Assembly (NCBI GenBank): GCA_021805735.1
Contig: JAJZEE010000025.1
Span: 1-43,801 of the forward strand
Direction: 5' to 3'
Length of the DNA: 43,801 bases
DNA from: Bacillota bacterium
GTDB lineage: Bacteria; Bacillota; Bacilli; Alicyclobacillales; SLC66
The position numbers were made by a program, and so were the translations under genes. The notes under the pieces are model-generated. The model saw nothing but the letters and a program-made list of their open reading frames with translations, made no database searches and was not told where the DNA came from. Of this stretch, positions 13,987-20,138 are shown piece by piece; the stretch's first letter is position 1, and each line of letters begins with the position of its first letter.

Positions 13987-14016
13987 CTTGCTTGGGCCCC
14001 ATGTCGCTGCGCAGTA

Positions 14017-14116
14017 ACATCAGTGGAATGAAAAACCCGCTTGTCAGGATTCACATGCTGTGCCCGTCGCGAGTTCGGCGTAGCCGTGTCTGAGCAGGGG
14101 CACAGCATGTGAATCC
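14017..14116 (+). repeat. structured intergenic repeat, copy A
   Basis: The element opens ACATCAGTGGAATGAAAAA then CCCGCTTGTCAGGA. A perfect 19-bp stem follows (14047-14065 with 14098-14116). The 32-base loop contains GCGAGTT and a small hairpin CGGC-GTA-GCCG (14076-14086). Copy B, 4 kb away in the same orientation, has nearly the same leader and loop but a different, perfectly paired stem. No T-run follows. It lies between the amidase and phosphohexomutase genes. Confidence 0.65.
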
Positions 14117-14163
14117 GGCCAGCAGGGACATTTTTCGGGACCGGAAAGGGTGTTTAACCTGTT

Positions 14164-15903
14164 ATGACGGAGATGGTCGAAACCGTATGGCGACGGTGGC
14201 ATGGCGAAGCGCGGTTGCTTCCCCCATTGCGTTTGGAACTGCAGACGTTGATTGAGTCTGGCGCACAGGCAGAACTTCTCGACCGCTTTGGCGAGGACCT
14301 GCAGTTTGGCACTGGCGGGTTGCGCGCCAAAATGGGCGTTGGCACCAATCGGATGAATGTATACACGGTGCGCCGGGCGACCGCTGGCGTGGTGGAGTGG
14401 ATTCGAGAGACTGCGCCCAGGGAACGGCGGCGATTGGCCATCGGATTTGATGGAAGACGCGATTCGCAGACGTTTGCCAGGGAGATCGCCGGCGTGGCTG
14501 CGGCGCGAGGCGTGCCTGCCTGCCTGTTTGCCGCAGCGAGACCCACGCCGATGCTGTCGTTTGCAGTCCGTCACCTGCAATGTGCGGCAGGTGTGATGGT
14601 GACCGCCAGTCACAATCCGCCAGAGTACAATGGTTACAAAGTATATGGACCTGATGGTGGACAGGTACTGCCGGATGATGCCGAGCGAATGGTGGCGCTC
14701 ATGCGGCAGGAAGCCGACATGTTCGACATCGCTGCGCTGACGCCGGAGGATGAACAGTACCGCGCGCTGGTCGCGATTCTCGCAGAGGATGTGGAACGCG
14801 CGTATTACGAGCGGCTGGCGCCGCTGATGACTGCAGAATCGGCGGGCAACAAAGACGCGCTGACGATTGTCTATACGCCGCTGCATGGCACGGGCGGGGA
14901 AACGGTTCCGCGCGCGCTGCGATTGGCGGGCTACAATCACGTATACACAGTTCCGGAACAGTCTGCGCTGGACGACAGATTTACCTTTGCGCGCAGCCCC
15001 AATCCCGAGGAGGGTATTGCGTATGACCGCGCTCTTGTCCTTGCGCAGGAGAGGTCAGCGGATATCGTGCTCGCGACCGACCCGGACGCGGACCGCGTGG
15101 GCATGATGGCGAGGCGGACAGACGGTCAGTACGAACTGCTTACTGGGAATGAAGTTGGCGCGCTGTTCCTGTCTTATTACCTGGAGGCGCTCAGTGGACA
15201 GGGGAGAGTGCCCGAGCGAGGCGCCGTGGTCACGACCATCGTCTCGTCCGATTTTGGTGAAGCGGTCGCGCGGTCCTATGGCGTGAGTACTGAGCGGACG
15301 CTCACAGGATTCAAGTACATTGGGGACAAGATTGGGCAATACGAACGGGATGGAACTCGTCAGTTTGTGTTTGGCTATGAAGAGAGTGTGGGGTATTTGT
15401 TACTCCCGTTTGTGCGCGATAAAGACGGCATCCAGGCGGTGGTGTTTCTGGCCAACATGGCGGCTTCCCTGAAACGTCGACACGGCGATCTGAGCATAGC
15501 GCTGCAGGCGTTGCACAGTCGCTACGGATACTATCGCGATCGGTTGCTCAGCTACACATTTGCGGGCCGCGACGGGTTGCAACGCATGAACGCCCTGATG
15601 TCCGATTTGCGCCGCAACCATCTTCACGCGCAGGATGCGCCACTGTCCGCCGTGGAAGACTATCTGACGCTGCTTGCCACTGATATGACTGGCGGCCAGC
15701 AAAGCGCCCTCAACCTTCCGGCGTCGGACGTTTTGAAATTCCGGTTTACAGGCGATGCGTGGATTGCTGTTCGTCCATCCGGCACCGAGCCAAAACTGAA
15801 GGTGTACATTGGCGTGAAGGGAACCGATACGCAGACGGCCAACGACCAGGTGGAACGCTTGCAGTCAGTGGTGGAGGCTCGTCTGCAGGCGTTTCTCGCA
15901 TAG
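14164..15903 (+). CDS. pgcA: phospho-sugar mutase (phosphoglucomutase type)
   Basis: This 579-residue enzyme of the alpha-D-phosphohexomutase family interconverts glucose-6-phosphate and glucose-1-phosphate and feeds UDP-glucose synthesis. The active-site loop is VMVTASHNPPEYNGYKVYGP (catalytic Ser). The metal loop is ATDPDADRVGMM, the sugar-binding loop is GYEESVGYLLLPF, and the phosphate-binding loop is RPSGTEPKLKVYIGV. N-terminal LQFGTGGLRAKMGVGTNRMN is typical. Length and motifs fit Bacillus PgcA (about 580). The ATG at 14164 is taken from the alignable N-terminus; the ribosome binding site (AAAGGGTG) is weak and a second ATG lies at 14173. The enzyme could also act on mannose phosphates. 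Confidence 0.9.
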   Translation: MTEMVETVWRRWHGEARLLPPLRLELQTLIESGAQAELLDRFGEDLQFGTGGLRAKMGVGTNRMNVYTVRRATAGVVEWIRETAPRERRRLAIGFDGRRDSQTFAREIAGVAAARGVPACLFAAARPTPMLSFAVRHLQCAAGVMVTASHNPPEYNGYKVYGPDGGQVLPDDAERMVALMRQEADMFDIAALTPEDEQYRALVAILAEDVERAYYERLAPLMTAESAGNKDALTIVYTPLHGTGGETVPRALRLAGYNHVYTVPEQSALDDRFTFARSPNPEEGIAYDRALVLAQERSADIVLATDPDADRVGMMARRTDGQYELLTGNEVGALFLSYYLEALSGQGRVPERGAVVTTIVSSDFGEAVARSYGVSTERTLTGFKYIGDKIGQYERDGTRQFVFGYEESVGYLLLPFVRDKDGIQAVVFLANMAASLKRRHGDLSIALQALHSRYGYYRDRLLSYTFAGRDGLQRMNALMSDLRRNHLHAQDAPLSAVEDYLTLLATDMTGGQQSALNLPASDVLKFRFTGDAWIAVRPSGTEPKLKVYIGVKGTDTQTANDQVERLQSVVEARLQAFLA

Positions 15904-15931
15904 CATGCGCCCAATGTGCGCGCCTATGTGT

Positions 15932-15943
15932 ACGTGCGCACGT
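15932..15943. promoter_or_regulatory. 12-bp perfect palindrome ACGTGCGCACGT
   Basis: This perfect dyad lies 46 bases before the start of the HTH gene. TATGCT (15952-15957) could be a -10 but the -35 is poor. Autoregulation by the HTH protein is an obvious but untested idea. Confidence 0.35.
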
Positions 15944-15989
15944 TTGTGTGCTATGCTGTGTGCACAAACCACTTCAGGAGGGCGTTCAA

Positions 15990-16457
15990 ATGGAATTTAC
16001 GACTTATGAAATTGCATACCGTCTCAATGTATCTGAAGAAACTGTGCGCAGATGGATTCGGACTCATCAGTTGCCCGCGGACGATTCAAGCGGCAAATAC
16101 CTCGTTAAAGAGGACGATTTACAACAGTTTTTGAGCAGACGCGGCACTCCCGCCGGAAAGGCCGTCAGTTGGCTGGCCAGTCTAAGCAGCGCGGGTGTGC
16201 GCGCTGCGGCTCCTGGAGTCGCATTTGCGGCGACCAATATGATGACGTCCGCCGCTCTGTCCGGGCTAAAATTGTATAAGGTGCTGTCAGGCGCAGAGCA
16301 GGTAGGGGCCGACGAACTGTCGCACATGATTGACGATGTCGACAAGAGTATCGCCAGTTTGCAGGAGAACTTGCGTCTGATCATGGAGCAGAAGGATAAA
16401 CTCGAAACTGGCATCGCTGAATGGCAGGAGATTCGTGAGAAACTGCTGAAATCCTAG
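15990..16457 (+). CDS. excisionase-type HTH protein with hydrophobic segment and coiled coil
   Basis: This 155-residue protein starts with a MerR/excisionase-type helix-turn-helix (MEFTTYEIAYRLNVSEETVR, RWIRTHQLPA, then a wing ending KYLVKEDDLQQFL). Residues about 60-105 are Ala-rich and weakly hydrophobic (AGVRAAAPGVAFAATNMM), possibly membrane-interacting. The last 50 residues form a coiled coil (DDVDKSIASLQENLRLIMEQ, KDKLETGIAEWQEIREKLL). CAGGAGG precedes the ATG at a good distance, so upstream in-frame starts inside the mutase gene are not needed. The next gene begins five bases after the stop, so the two are probably coexpressed. DNA binding is likely; the target is unknown, and no phage or integrase gene lies nearby. 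Confidence 0.7.
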   Translation: MEFTTYEIAYRLNVSEETVRRWIRTHQLPADDSSGKYLVKEDDLQQFLSRRGTPAGKAVSWLASLSSAGVRAAAPGVAFAATNMMTSAALSGLKLYKVLSGAEQVGADELSHMIDDVDKSIASLQENLRLIMEQKDKLETGIAEWQEIREKLLKS

Positions 16458-16461
16458 CGGC

Positions 16462-17181
16462 ATGAACTTCCAGGAAGGCGAGGCTCTGCTCGTGAGATTT
16501 GATCGAGTCAGCCTGAACATGACACAGCAGGACATGGAGAATGCGGTCAATGAACAGCTTCCTCCAGACTTTCACGTATGTGATCTGCATCTGACGACAG
16601 GTGGGGCCGTCGCCACATTGGTGACACCTTGGCTCCGGCTGAACGTGATGTTGCGGGTGATTCCGCAACATCACGAGGCTACAGGAAACTCTGCTGAGGC
16701 TACAGGAAACTCTGCCGAAGCTGCTGAGATGGCTGAGACGGCTGAGACTGCAAGCCCGTCTGCACAACCCGCTTCGGTTTCGCAAAGCGGCCAGGGGATG
16801 GAAGCAGAATGGTCTCCGAAACGTCCGGGGCGCAAGTCATTCTTGGAACACCACTCGTTTCCCGGAAGAGACGGTTCGTCGCGGGAGACATTGGTGAGAG
16901 ACGGAGTCGCGCTGATTGAAGTGCGGGCATCCAGATGGATTCCGATACCGCGCCCAATGCTGGCGAATCTGCTCGAACGTTTTATCGGTGATGTGTCGCC
17001 GGCTCTTCGCGTTACAGGCACATGTCTGCGCGCTGACATCCGTGGATTGCTGGAGCCTTTGTTCAAGGTACAGGACGTCGACATGATCCTTGAAGATGGG
17101 ATGCTGCGGCTCGAGGGAACCGGAGTGATTGTTGACGCGACGCCTGCGGCGCCTGCCTGCTCCAGGAATGGCACCGTCTAG
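16462..17181 (+). CDS. unknown two-part protein with repetitive linker
   Basis: This 239-residue protein is of no family I recognise. An N-terminal part (1-75; GEALLVRFDRVSLNMTQQDM) and a C-terminal part (150-230; LIEVRASRWIPIPRPMLANL) are joined by a low-complexity linker with EATGNSA repeated and EAAEMAETAETA. Both ordered parts alternate strands and helices and might be distant duplicates, which is only an impression. No signal peptide or membrane helix is seen. The ATG at 16462 lies just after the HTH gene and lacks a strong ribosome binding site, so translational coupling is likely. A 13-bp perfect inverted repeat and a 21-bp tandem duplication lie in the coding DNA just before and in the linker. 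Confidence 0.6.
   Translation: MNFQEGEALLVRFDRVSLNMTQQDMENAVNEQLPPDFHVCDLHLTTGGAVATLVTPWLRLNVMLRVIPQHHEATGNSAEATGNSAEAAEMAETAETASPSAQPASVSQSGQGMEAEWSPKRPGRKSFLEHHSFPGRDGSSRETLVRDGVALIEVRASRWIPIPRPMLANLLERFIGDVSPALRVTGTCLRADIRGLLEPLFKVQDVDMILEDGMLRLEGTGVIVDATPAAPACSRNGTV
16644..16675 (+). repeat. 13-bp perfect inverted repeat inside a coding region
   Basis: CGTGATGTTGCGG (16644-16656) and its exact complement (16663-16675) are separated by GTGATT. It encodes the last residues of the N-terminal part of the unknown protein and ends where the 21-bp duplication begins. Confidence 0.6.
16675..16716 (+). repeat. 21-bp tandem duplication in linker coding sequence
   Basis: Two units (16675-16695 and 16696-16716), differing only at the last base, each encode Glu-Ala-Thr-Gly-Asn-Ser-Ala. 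They are followed by a degenerate GCTGAGA-type run. The near identity points to a recent slippage event. Confidence 0.75.
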
Positions 17182-17196
17182 AGAGGAGCGCGTTCT

Positions 17197-17958
17197 TTGC
17201 ATCAAACTGCCATTGTGTGGGTCGGGGTGATTACCGCAGGGTTTATAGCAGGATTGTTCGATTCCGTGGTCGGAGGGGGCGGCGTGATCACACTGCCCAC
17301 TTTGTTATGGACGGGTTTGTCTCCCTATTATGCCCTTGGTACGAATAAATTGGCGGGTACCTTTGCGTCCTCGACGAGTTCGTTGACATATTTCCGTTCG
17401 AACAAACTATACATGCCCCTTCTGGCCTGGATGATACCCTTTACGTTTGTTGGAGCGCTGATTGGCGTTAACACTGTTTTGGGGGTTAATCAGCGCAATT
17501 TGCGTCTGGTCATCTTTTTTGCCATCGTCGTGATCACTGCAGTGACGCTCTTCAAGCGCCGCATGGGCGCAGAGAACAGATTTCCCGGGTTGTCGGCGCG
17601 CGTCGTGGCCAAGGCCATGGTGATTGCTGCGGCGCTAGGTTTTTACGACGGATTTGTGGGTCCTGGAACTGGAACATTTTTGCTGTTCGCCTTTCTGTCC
17701 GTGTTCCAATTTGACTTTCTCGGCGCCGCCGGAAACGGCCGAGTACTGAATTTCACCAGCAATGCGGCTGCGTTGCTGATGTTTTCGCTGCGCGGAAAGA
17801 TTGTGATTGCAATCGGTCTGCCCATGGGCGTTGCCATGATGATCGGAGCTCGTGTCGGCTCCCGATTTGCGATCAAACAGGGAGCGCGAGTCATCAGACC
17901 GCTGTTTGTCGCGGTCGCCGTCGTACTGTCCGTCAAGATGGCGTTGTCGGTGTTTTGA
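17197..17958 (+). CDS. TSUP-family permease (TauE/SafE)
   Basis: This 253-residue integral membrane protein has about eight hydrophobic helices. The family motif GLFDSVVGGGGVITLPTLLW lies near the N-terminus and its echo GFYDGFVGPGTGTFLLFAFL in the second half, with LGTNKLAGTFASS between. TauE/SafE (TSUP) proteins are thought to move sulfite, sulfoacetate or other sulfur-containing or organic anions across the cytoplasmic membrane. The substrate here is unknown. The TTG at 17197 follows AGAGGAG at a good distance and is 15 bases after the preceding stop, so the gene may be the third in the unit started by the HTH gene. It is followed by structured repeat element B. Confidence 0.85.
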   Translation: MHQTAIVWVGVITAGFIAGLFDSVVGGGGVITLPTLLWTGLSPYYALGTNKLAGTFASSTSSLTYFRSNKLYMPLLAWMIPFTFVGALIGVNTVLGVNQRNLRLVIFFAIVVITAVTLFKRRMGAENRFPGLSARVVAKAMVIAAALGFYDGFVGPGTGTFLLFAFLSVFQFDFLGAAGNGRVLNFTSNAAALLMFSLRGKIVIAIGLPMGVAMMIGARVGSRFAIKQGARVIRPLFVAVAVVLSVKMALSVF

Positions 17959-17999
17959 GGGCGGTTTTCAGGATAGACTGCCATGATGCTTTCGCGCCA

Positions 18000-18116
18000 C
18001 CATCAGTGGGAAGAAAAACCCGCTCGCCAGGACGGATCATGCATTGCACTGCAGCGAGTTTTGCGGCCTTTTGGCCGCACCTGTTGAAGGGCAGTGCAAT
18101 GCATGATCCGTCCTGG
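18000..18116 (+). repeat. structured intergenic repeat, copy B
   Basis: The element opens CCATCAGTGGGAAGAAAAA then CCCGCTCGCCAGGA. The stem is a perfect 26-bp inverted repeat (18027-18052 with 18091-18116). The 38-base loop carries GCGAGTT and an inner hairpin TGCGGCC-TTTT-GGCCGCA (18062-18079). Leader and loop resemble copy A (14017-14116), while the stem bases differ yet pair fully. It ends about 20 bases before the ribosome binding site of the following gene. Confidence 0.7.
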
Positions 18117-18150
18117 CATGGCAGGAACACACGATGAAGGAGGACCGGGC

Positions 18151-20085
18151 ATGACCACTGCTAAACCCGCTTTGCTCTCTTATCTGCGCGACCGGATGCT
18201 GATCGGCGATGGCGCCATGGCTACACAACTCTATCAGATGGGAGTTCCGGTCGGAGTTTGTTACGAGGAACTGAACATCTCCAGGGCAGAGATTGTTGCG
18301 CGTGTGCATCGGTCTTATTACGACGCGGGGGCGCGTTTGATTGAAACGAACACATTTGGCGCTCACAGCGCGGGGTTGGCGCGGTATGGCCTTGAAGACC
18401 GGATGGCGGACATCAATCGCGCGGCTGTGCGTGTCGCCCGCGATGCAGTGGGCGCGGATGCCTTCATCGCAGCCACCGTTGGCTCAGTAACCGGAGTAAG
18501 GCGCAACTTTGCGCCCCCTGTCGATCTGGAACATGCGTACAGTGAACAAGTCGCCGCGCTCCTTGAAGAGGGGCCGGATGCGGTGCTGCTGGAAACGTTC
18601 CTTGACCTGGAGGAATTGCTTCTGGCAGTCGGTGTCGTGCGCAGGCTTAGCGACCTGCCAGTAATTGCGCAACTGGCGCCGCTCGATCTGGCGGTGACGC
18701 GAGACGGTCATCGATTGCAGGACGCGTTTGAGACGCTGCTTGCCGCGGGGGCGTCAGTGGTAGGGCTGAACTGTCGCTTTGGCCCGGCGGATATGCAGCG
18801 CGCTCTGCGCGCCGTCGCCTTTAACCCTGATGCACTCGTTTCCATCTTTCCGAACGCAGGATTGTTAAGCATGACAGACGGTCACTACCATTACCCTTCA
18901 GAACCCGCGTACTTCGCCTCGGCGGCGATTGAATTTCATGCGCTTGGCGTGCGGATCATAGGGGGCTGTTGTGGAACTTCGCCTGAGCACATCCGCGCCA
19001 TGGCAGAGGCTGTCTCCCAGCTTCCCCCGCAAAGGCCTGGCATCGTCGCCAATGCTGTGGAAACGGCCAAGCCCGCGCGTCAGGTAGAGGTTGCGAACGT
19101 AACCGCGCCTGCGCATCGGCATGATGCGACGCGCGCGCTGTCTTTAGAACCCGCACAGGACGGGGGAGCGTCTGTACACCCGATGCTTGTACACGAGAAA
19201 GTGCTGCGGGAACACACCGTCATCGTAGAACTGGATCCGCCGAAGGACCTCGCCGCAGACGCGTTTCTAAGCGGAACGCAGGCTCTTCAGGAGGCTGGCG
19301 CGGACGCCGTGACACTGGCGGACAACTCGCTGGCGATCACACGCATGAGCAACGTCGCTCTTGGGGCGCTGATGAAACAGCGCGGCGTGGAGCCGCTCCT
19401 GCACATCTCCTGCCGTGACCGAAATCTGATCGGGCAGCAGTCACATCTCATGGGGTTGCATGCGCTCGGAATCAGACAGGTGCTGGTGATTACAGGGGAC
19501 CCCTCCCGATTCGGCGATCTTCCGGGAGCGACGTCCGTGTTTGACGTATCGTCTTTTGATATGATTCGCATGGTCAAGCAATTAAACGCCGGTCTCGCGT
19601 TTTCTGGCCGCCAGCTCTCTGAAGCATCCTCCTTTGTGGTGGGCGCCGCCTTCAATCCTAATGTACGGCACTTTGACAAAGCCATTCGCAGGCTGGAGAG
19701 AAAGGTTGAAGCCGGGGCTGACTTCATCATGACGCAACCAGTTTTTGACCCGAGATTCTTTGAAGTGCTCAAAGAGGCCACGAAGCATCTGCCTGTGCCT
19801 CTCTTTGTGGGAATCATGCCCCTGCTGAGCCATCGCAACGCAGAGTTCCTGCACAATGAGGTTCCGGGCATTTCGTTGTCTTCCGAGGTCCGAACGCGCA
19901 TGACGCAGTACGAAGGTCGACGCGCTCGCGACGAAGGCCTGGCGATCGCCAGGGAGTTGCTGGATGCCGCCATGCCCCACTTTAACGGAATCTATCTGAT
20001 CACTCCGCTGTTGCGGTACGAGATGACAGCCGCTCTGACGAGGCACGTTAAGGAACACGCGCAAAAGCACGGGCGCGTCAGATAG
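18151..20085 (+). CDS. yitJ: homocysteine S-methyltransferase / methylenetetrahydrofolate reductase fusion
   Basis: This bifunctional methionine-synthesis protein has about 644 residues. The N-terminal part (about 1-300) is a Zn-dependent homocysteine methyltransferase: GDGAMATQLYQMG, IETNTFGAHSAGL, and the metal cysteines in GLNCRFG and GGCCGTSPEHIRAM. The C-terminal part (about 350-640) is a MetF-like flavoprotein that reduces methylene-THF: ELDPPKDLAAD, GADAVTLADNSLA, LVITGDPSRFGD, AGADFIMTQPVFD. The same fusion is known as YitJ in Bacillus. The ATG at 18151 follows AAGGAGGA; the upstream in-frame ATG at 18094 lies inside repeat element B and is unlikely. Bacillus yitJ is controlled by a SAM (S-box) riboswitch; none is seen in the 190 bases upstream here. 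Confidence 0.9.
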   Translation: MTTAKPALLSYLRDRMLIGDGAMATQLYQMGVPVGVCYEELNISRAEIVARVHRSYYDAGARLIETNTFGAHSAGLARYGLEDRMADINRAAVRVARDAVGADAFIAATVGSVTGVRRNFAPPVDLEHAYSEQVAALLEEGPDAVLLETFLDLEELLLAVGVVRRLSDLPVIAQLAPLDLAVTRDGHRLQDAFETLLAAGASVVGLNCRFGPADMQRALRAVAFNPDALVSIFPNAGLLSMTDGHYHYPSEPAYFASAAIEFHALGVRIIGGCCGTSPEHIRAMAEAVSQLPPQRPGIVANAVETAKPARQVEVANVTAPAHRHDATRALSLEPAQDGGASVHPMLVHEKVLREHTVIVELDPPKDLAADAFLSGTQALQEAGADAVTLADNSLAITRMSNVALGALMKQRGVEPLLHISCRDRNLIGQQSHLMGLHALGIRQVLVITGDPSRFGDLPGATSVFDVSSFDMIRMVKQLNAGLAFSGRQLSEASSFVVGAAFNPNVRHFDKAIRRLERKVEAGADFIMTQPVFDPRFFEVLKEATKHLPVPLFVGIMPLLSHRNAEFLHNEVPGISLSSEVRTRMTQYEGRRARDEGLAIARELLDAAMPHFNGIYLITPLLRYEMTAALTRHVKEHAQKHGRVR

Positions 20086-20138
20086 AGACTGTCATGCTGC
20101 CGTGAAAAGAGCAGACACTTATTTTTCGCAATCTGTTG

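Follow-up and report, generated by a model that had tools for sequence, protein, structure and literature searches.

BOX, RUP and SPRITE are published examples of structured repeats (PMC3049150). The BOX element of Streptococcus pneumoniae, composed of boxA, boxB and boxC, is short, modular and intergenic, has a high copy number and strong secondary structure, and contains variable internal modules (PMC3049150). BOX is probably mobilised in trans, and its presence differs between strains (PMC3049150). It is found almost only in the pneumococcus and S. mitis, and S. suis has related elements. The family of hairpin repeats described here, from a bacterium of the Bacillota, is alike in all these respects of structure and placement, and its copies likewise vary by site. 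The likeness is one of layout only: there are many intergenic copies without an open reading frame, and modules differ in type or number at orthologous sites. Unlike BOX, the family swaps its stems wholesale and keeps the loop, and its core recurs in other phyla and in a permuted order.

Several other systems share some of these properties. REP/BIME elements, which are associated with RAYT proteins, are also interspersed intergenic hairpins in mosaic clusters, and one RAYT gene, in genome G066, is flanked by permuted copies of our family. In contrast to REP/BIME, the family lacks GTAG/GGAG, has no RAYT in the genome, has much longer stems, and conserves the internal loop rather than the stem sequence. 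Integron attC sites are hairpins with free stem sequence that are recognised by structure. The family has the same kind of free stem, but it has no cassette array and its boxes lie in the internal loop, not at the stem base. Rickettsia palindromic elements are selfish palindromes with stable folds that have spread genome-wide, and they are known for insertion inside genes; by description this contrasts with our family, of which only 6 of 129 copies lie in predicted genes. Intrinsic terminators and Rfam RNAs are stable hairpins near gene ends, whereas the family mostly lacks a T-run.

The window is the whole stretch of DNA that was analysed, 43,801 nt (positions 1 to 43,801 of contig JAJZEE010000025.1, assembly GCA_021805735.1). 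It contains two copies, for which the chances seem to us about even that both are a non-autonomous, modular, BOX-like interspersed hairpin repeat, its hairpin recognised by shape and core loop. The features are as follows.

13988..14131, + strand: copy 1 with its scaffold; the stretch is absent at the same site in the related genome G002 and present in G001
14018..14041, + strand: conserved linker of copy 1, CATCAGTGGAATGAAAAACCCGCT; 23 matches in the genome at ≤3 mismatches, 0 for the reversed control
14047..14065, + strand: left stem arm of copy 1, type A, GGATTCACATGCTGTGCCC; pairs perfectly with 14098-14116
14069..14075, + strand: core strand 1 of copy 1, GCGAGTT; kept in the family and across phyla
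14076..14086, + strand: inner hairpin of copy 1, CGGC-GTA-GCCG; helix 4 of the consensus fold, which covaries
14087..14095, + strand: core strand 2 of copy 1, TGTCTGAGC; kept in the family and across phyla
14098..14116, + strand: right stem arm of copy 1; partner of 14047-14065, 19 bp
17964..18125, + strand: copy 2 with its scaffold (head TTTTCAGGATAGACTGCCATG, small hairpin, linker, type C hairpin); a different hairpin stands at the orthologous site in G001
from 18001, + strand: linker of copy 2; the same linker as in copy 1
18026..18052, + strand: left stem arm of copy 2, type C, 27 nt; pairs with 18091-18117
18054..18060, + strand: core strand 1 of copy 2, GCGAGTT; family core
18062..18079, + strand: inner hairpin of copy 2, TGCGGCC-TTTT-GGCCGCA; part of the fold
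18082..18089, + strand: core strand 2 of copy 2, TGTTGAAG, deviating from the family consensus TGTTTGAGC
18091..18117, + strand: right stem arm of copy 2, type C; pairs with 18026-18052
20081..20096, + strand: scaffold remnant GATAGAGACTGTCATG without a hairpin, directly 3' of the homocysteine methyltransferase/MTHFR gene

The original prediction had described two like structured copies on the + strand, with a common linker, GCGAGTT loop and inner hairpin and with unlike outer stems, and our analysis bears this out. The stem of copy 1 is a perfect 19 bp, as had been stated, and that of copy 2 is 27 bp rather than 26. Both copies fold as RNA far better than shuffled sequences (z-scores of -6.0 for copy 1 and -10.5 for copy 2, with no shuffle as good). 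The genes that had been named downstream were also correct: a phosphohexomutase gene (14164) follows copy 1, and a gene for a bifunctional homocysteine S-methyltransferase/MTHFR (ATG at 18154) follows copy 2. The methyltransferase probably starts at this ATG, which has GGAGG upstream, and the open reading frames that run through the hairpins (one on the - strand, window 14044-14940, and one with a GTG start at 18094, window 18094-18153) are probably spurious.

A likeness by chance is excluded by the linker matches given above (23 versus 0 for the control) and by the matches of a covariance model throughout the genome. The model, built from 22 copies, found 142 matches in the genome at E≤0.01, a few of which are antisense self-matches of the palindrome, and 129 sense copies were extracted. 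These fall into four stem subfamilies (A, 36 copies; B, 37; C, 27; D, 25) plus single variants; the copy at 14017 is of type A and that at 18003 of type C. The family is intergenic and has no open reading frame of its own. Copies between co-directional genes are in the sense orientation in 74 cases and antisense in 9, and by our tally about three in four copies on long contigs lie on the strand indicated by GC skew. A search of relatives found at least 96 and at least 83 copies in two species of the same genus, and 12 and 37 copies, with stems of other types, in two other genera of the same taxonomic family. Thirty-six further relatives had none.

The claim that the stems covary stood up to statistical testing. 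Across the 129 aligned copies, in an alignment that leans to the model because it was fitted to it, 97.1% of cells are paired, compared to 83.4% in shuffles; 20 of 24 stem pairs have changed on both sides, and two-sided changed cells number 495, versus 139 in shuffles and 8-29 in slid controls. None of 500 shuffles reached any of the observed covariation measures, and sliding the partner by 1-3 columns reduces the paired share to 27-49%. A direct count of the arms that uses no model gave 2745 Watson-Crick pairs out of 2832, with perfect stems in 70 of 128 copies and 74 distinct left arms. The small upstream hairpin varies likewise (GGCGC/GCGCC, GCTGC/GCAGC, GCCGC/GCGGC). A pseudoknot between leader and loop was considered and rejected: it is perfect in the relative G005, but in this genome 119 of 128 copies offer just 3-5 nt of it, and it would be sterically awkward beside a stem of 19-27 bp.

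The mismatches that do occur carry a strand signal. With neutral scoring, each of the five sets has more G.T than A.C on its core strand (29:16, 10:8, 13:1, 15:7 and 48:16; 115 versus 48 when summed), significantly so in two of the five; the ratio for this genome, 29:16, has p 0.07. Because of this excess, the fold of the core strand seems to count, whether in RNA or in single-stranded DNA. Covariation above controls and the G.T excess together support a structured RNA or ssDNA.

The presence and the type of the hairpin both differ between related species. At the 14017 site, G001 is filled and G002 is empty, reading TTTCACTGACCTATTCTCAGGACCGG without window positions 13988-14131. At the 18000 site, a similar leader in the sister species G001 is followed by another hairpin, one that reads like a chimera between types A and B. 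At the 20097 site, this genome has only the scaffold remnant, G001 has 381 extra bases with two hairpins, and G002 has a type C hairpin. The two downstream genes look incidental, since the 14017 copy is absent in G002 and another hairpin type precedes the methionine gene in G001. The loci are mosaic, and a shorter module can replace the large hairpin between the same scaffold ends (L187 versus L366). Among orthologous flank pairs compared between this genome and G001, 28 were filled in both and 7 were scored as not filled in G001; this figure is an upper bound, since on individual alignment some turned out to hold other modules or to run into assembly ends instead of being clean empty sites. 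Five of 21 single-element ortholog pairs had switched type or were below 75% identity. Neither a target-site duplication nor sharp element ends could be fixed in the insertions compared, since most of these insertions are mosaic.

Rates of change differ strongly between the parts of an element. In 16 same-type ortholog pairs from this genome and G001, differences fall at 4 of 418 positions in the core loop (1.0%), 40 of 638 in the stem (6.3%) and 193 of 1228 in the flank (15.7%, an upper bound that includes misaligned stretches). Between these sister species, 12 stem pairs have changed on both sides and are still Watson-Crick, versus 13 that have changed on one side; by our estimate, independent mutation would yield less than one two-sided change. 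Possible contributors are conversion from other copies, template switching and selection. Perfect stems have been reported to arise by template switching, which both creates and repairs hairpins (PMC8794818). Two loci show signs of the footprint described for it (PMC8794818): a matched, compensating insertion in both arms at C121:13533, and a stem extended with the element's own linker, copied exactly and in inverted form, at C96:37966.

The core also recurs in distant bacteria. Beyond the relatives, a contig scan found it in one Omnitrophica genome and two Coriobacteria genomes; other scattered matches of that scan were rejected, as they lack a stem and look like chance. The whole genomes hold 11 copies in Omnitrophica and 2 and 1 in Coriobacteria, with no control matches. 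Each Omnitrophica copy has an unrelated and mostly perfect stem, the inner hairpin covaries, and the upstream linker is similar (around TCTCCGTTTCACAGCCCCC). All 11 exact core matches of this genome, G440 (L421-L434), have the same contig orientation, and most right arms adjoin the end of the neighbouring gene. In Atopobiaceae (L132/L418), the core has an inverted counterpart (GCTCAGACAG...AACTCGC) a little way upstream.

In other Bacillota the two core strands occur in the opposite circular order. The permuted order, TGTYTGAGC-GNA-GCGAGTT, was found in 13 of 398 Bacillota genomes at 1-36 copies each, with long, variable stems and no control matches, whereas the unpermuted order was found in 1 of 396, namely this one. 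The permuted core is also present in prophage contigs, about 18 of them with clear stems among the matches listed; the many viral matches of the permuted pattern without a matching stem were left out of membership. A prophage copy used as query had no match in a phage collection and one partial match, outside the core, in a plasmid collection. In P2-like prophages (L209 5800-6020; L217 ~1191-1209), the permuted copy lies between apparent terminase small subunit and head completion genes; behind it comes a conserved tail, TTCTTTGGTTCTTTCTTG, which has a hairpin too, and other phage contigs have similar tails after their copies. Several Bacillota and phage copies also share another internal loop, in which GTTAAGA faces TTA, some 10-20 bp below the permuted core (L333, L332, L240, L231). 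In G247 (L357-L360), many contigs end about 50 bases from a permuted copy, which suggests that many near-identical recent copies broke the assembly. Orientation to genes is reversed in these distant sets (Omnitrophica, 8 antisense and 1 sense; permuted Bacillota, 13 antisense and 3 sense). A recognised internal-loop motif would be expected to look like this, its two strands opposed in the same way whichever side carries the closing loop. Because the stems change yet stay paired, and because the same unpaired core is found around unrelated stems in distant bacteria, shape rather than sequence appears to be recognised.

Comparison to known families gave no membership. The original prediction knew of no named RNA family with this layout, and indeed Rfam has no match in the window at the gathering threshold; a permissive search with copy 1 gave only implausible weak matches, and permissive searches of relatives also yielded none that plausibly matched the element. 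A literature search on the core sequence found nothing relevant. TTTT follows only 5 of 128 stems, which argues against an intrinsic terminator. The integron integrase profile TIGR02249 had no match over the cut-off in 8 carrier genomes, and an attC identity was rejected. Membership of the REP/RAYT group was also rejected: GTAG/GGAG occurs within 10 nt 5' of the stem in only 2 of 128 copies, and no RAYT protein homologue was found in this genome (G000) or in G001, G002, G005 and G010. The two Y1 proteins tested are of the IS200 type. Near the Y1 genes the type A consensus has no significant match; a type C copy lies about 0.9 kb from one truncated Y1 gene, an arrangement that does not recur at the other Y1 loci, and an identity as IS200 ends was rejected. 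Searches for a linked transposase identified no mobilising protein for the family, the Y1 searches being negative or unlinked.

What maintains these hairpins could be explained in other ways. The copies might be co-transcribed in sense, with a protein or ribonuclease that binds the folded RNA and so controls the stability, processing or attenuation of the mRNA, and with selection at each locus keeping the pairing. The sense bias in this genome, the core loop that diverges by 1% beside flanks at 16%, and the excess of G.T over A.C are what favour this, and yet we think it unlikely. A conserved sense-RNA role is not supported across lineages because the orientation bias is reversed in the Omnitrophica and permuted Bacillota copies; moreover, presence and type of copies differ at orthologous sites, and few stems are followed by TTTT. 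The element could instead be single-stranded DNA that a Y1 (HUH) transposase, of either the REP/RAYT or the IS200/IS605 type, mobilises in trans, with the core loop as the recognition site. The motifs known for stable DNA hairpins include GCGNAGC and tandem G.A pairs (as in the GCGAAGC mini-hairpin), many copies follow the GC-skew strand, and IS200-type Y1 transposases are present in this genome. In G066 (L356 812-2144), a gene for a REP-associated tyrosine transposase lies between two permuted copies. However, that gene is inside a cluster of ordinary GTAG hairpin repeats, the RAYT gene of G247 also sits among ordinary GTAG repeats with none of the family's elements nearby, and the core is carried without any Y1 match in G440, G439, G286 and G401. 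Together with the scarcity of GTAG/GGAG beside the stems and the absence of a RAYT homologue from this genome and the relatives searched, this makes mobilisation by a Y1 protein improbable in our judgement.

It is also conceivable that the hairpins have no function and are old palindromes, kept perfect only through quasipalindrome correction in replication and conversion among copies. The compensating insertion, the stem extension by an inverted linker copy and the two-sided changes far above independent mutation all fit this idea, as does the creation and repair of hairpins by template switching (PMC8794818). We nevertheless give it little credence. It leaves unexplained a core loop that is unpaired yet most conserved and that recurs in other phyla around unrelated stems, and strand-neutral correction predicts equal numbers of G.T and A.C, which the summed sets do not have.

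We return to the BOX-like, shape-recognised repeat. A short conserved scaffold would carry exchangeable hairpin cassettes between genes, the large cassette being a stem of 19-27 bp, an internal loop in which GCGAGTT lies opposite TGTYTGAGC, and a small inner hairpin. The fold and core loop may be what is recognised, in single-stranded DNA or in RNA, and a trans-acting factor may spread the element; hairpin-templated copying and conversion between copies might then keep the arms matched. If co-transcribed, the element would leave a stable hairpin between genes and affect expression no more than locally. Four observations count against this BOX-like repeat: the searches identified no mobilising protein, the mosaic insertions gave neither a target-site duplication nor sharp ends, conservation of the core across phyla exceeds what BOX is known to show and may mean a cellular function, and plain selfish insertion alone does not explain the strong orientation bias relative to genes.

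The original prediction held that the pair were functional structures and not plain mobile copies. The first half agrees with the covariation, the G.T excess and the conserved core loop; the second does not agree with some 130 copies, presence and absence at orthologous sites, and exchange of cassettes. The contrast between structure and mobile copies fails because the family is both.

The family is real and unusual. It is BOX-like in behaviour and is set apart by free but matched stems and by a core common to distant bacteria in two circular orders. Most interspersed repeats of bacteria are recognised by sequence, whereas this family conserves sequence only where its fold is unpaired. Because sequence is kept only in the unpaired parts while the stems change freely but matched, the family is nearly invisible to sequence search and is absent from Rfam. 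We speculate, with chances that we put clearly short of even, that the loop GCGAGTT / TGTYTGAGC, in both circular orders and with unrelated perfect stems in Bacillota, Coriobacteria, Omnitrophica and prophages, marks an undescribed and widespread class of shape-recognised mobile elements, with a factor in many phyla, in which only unpaired sequence is inherited, while each site has its stems written afresh or rewritten. The roughly 130 copies in one genome and the ortholog pairs of a sister species provide a dense natural set for weighing selection against template switching in compensatory change. A circularly permutable core common to several phyla also points to a recognition factor that can be sought directly.
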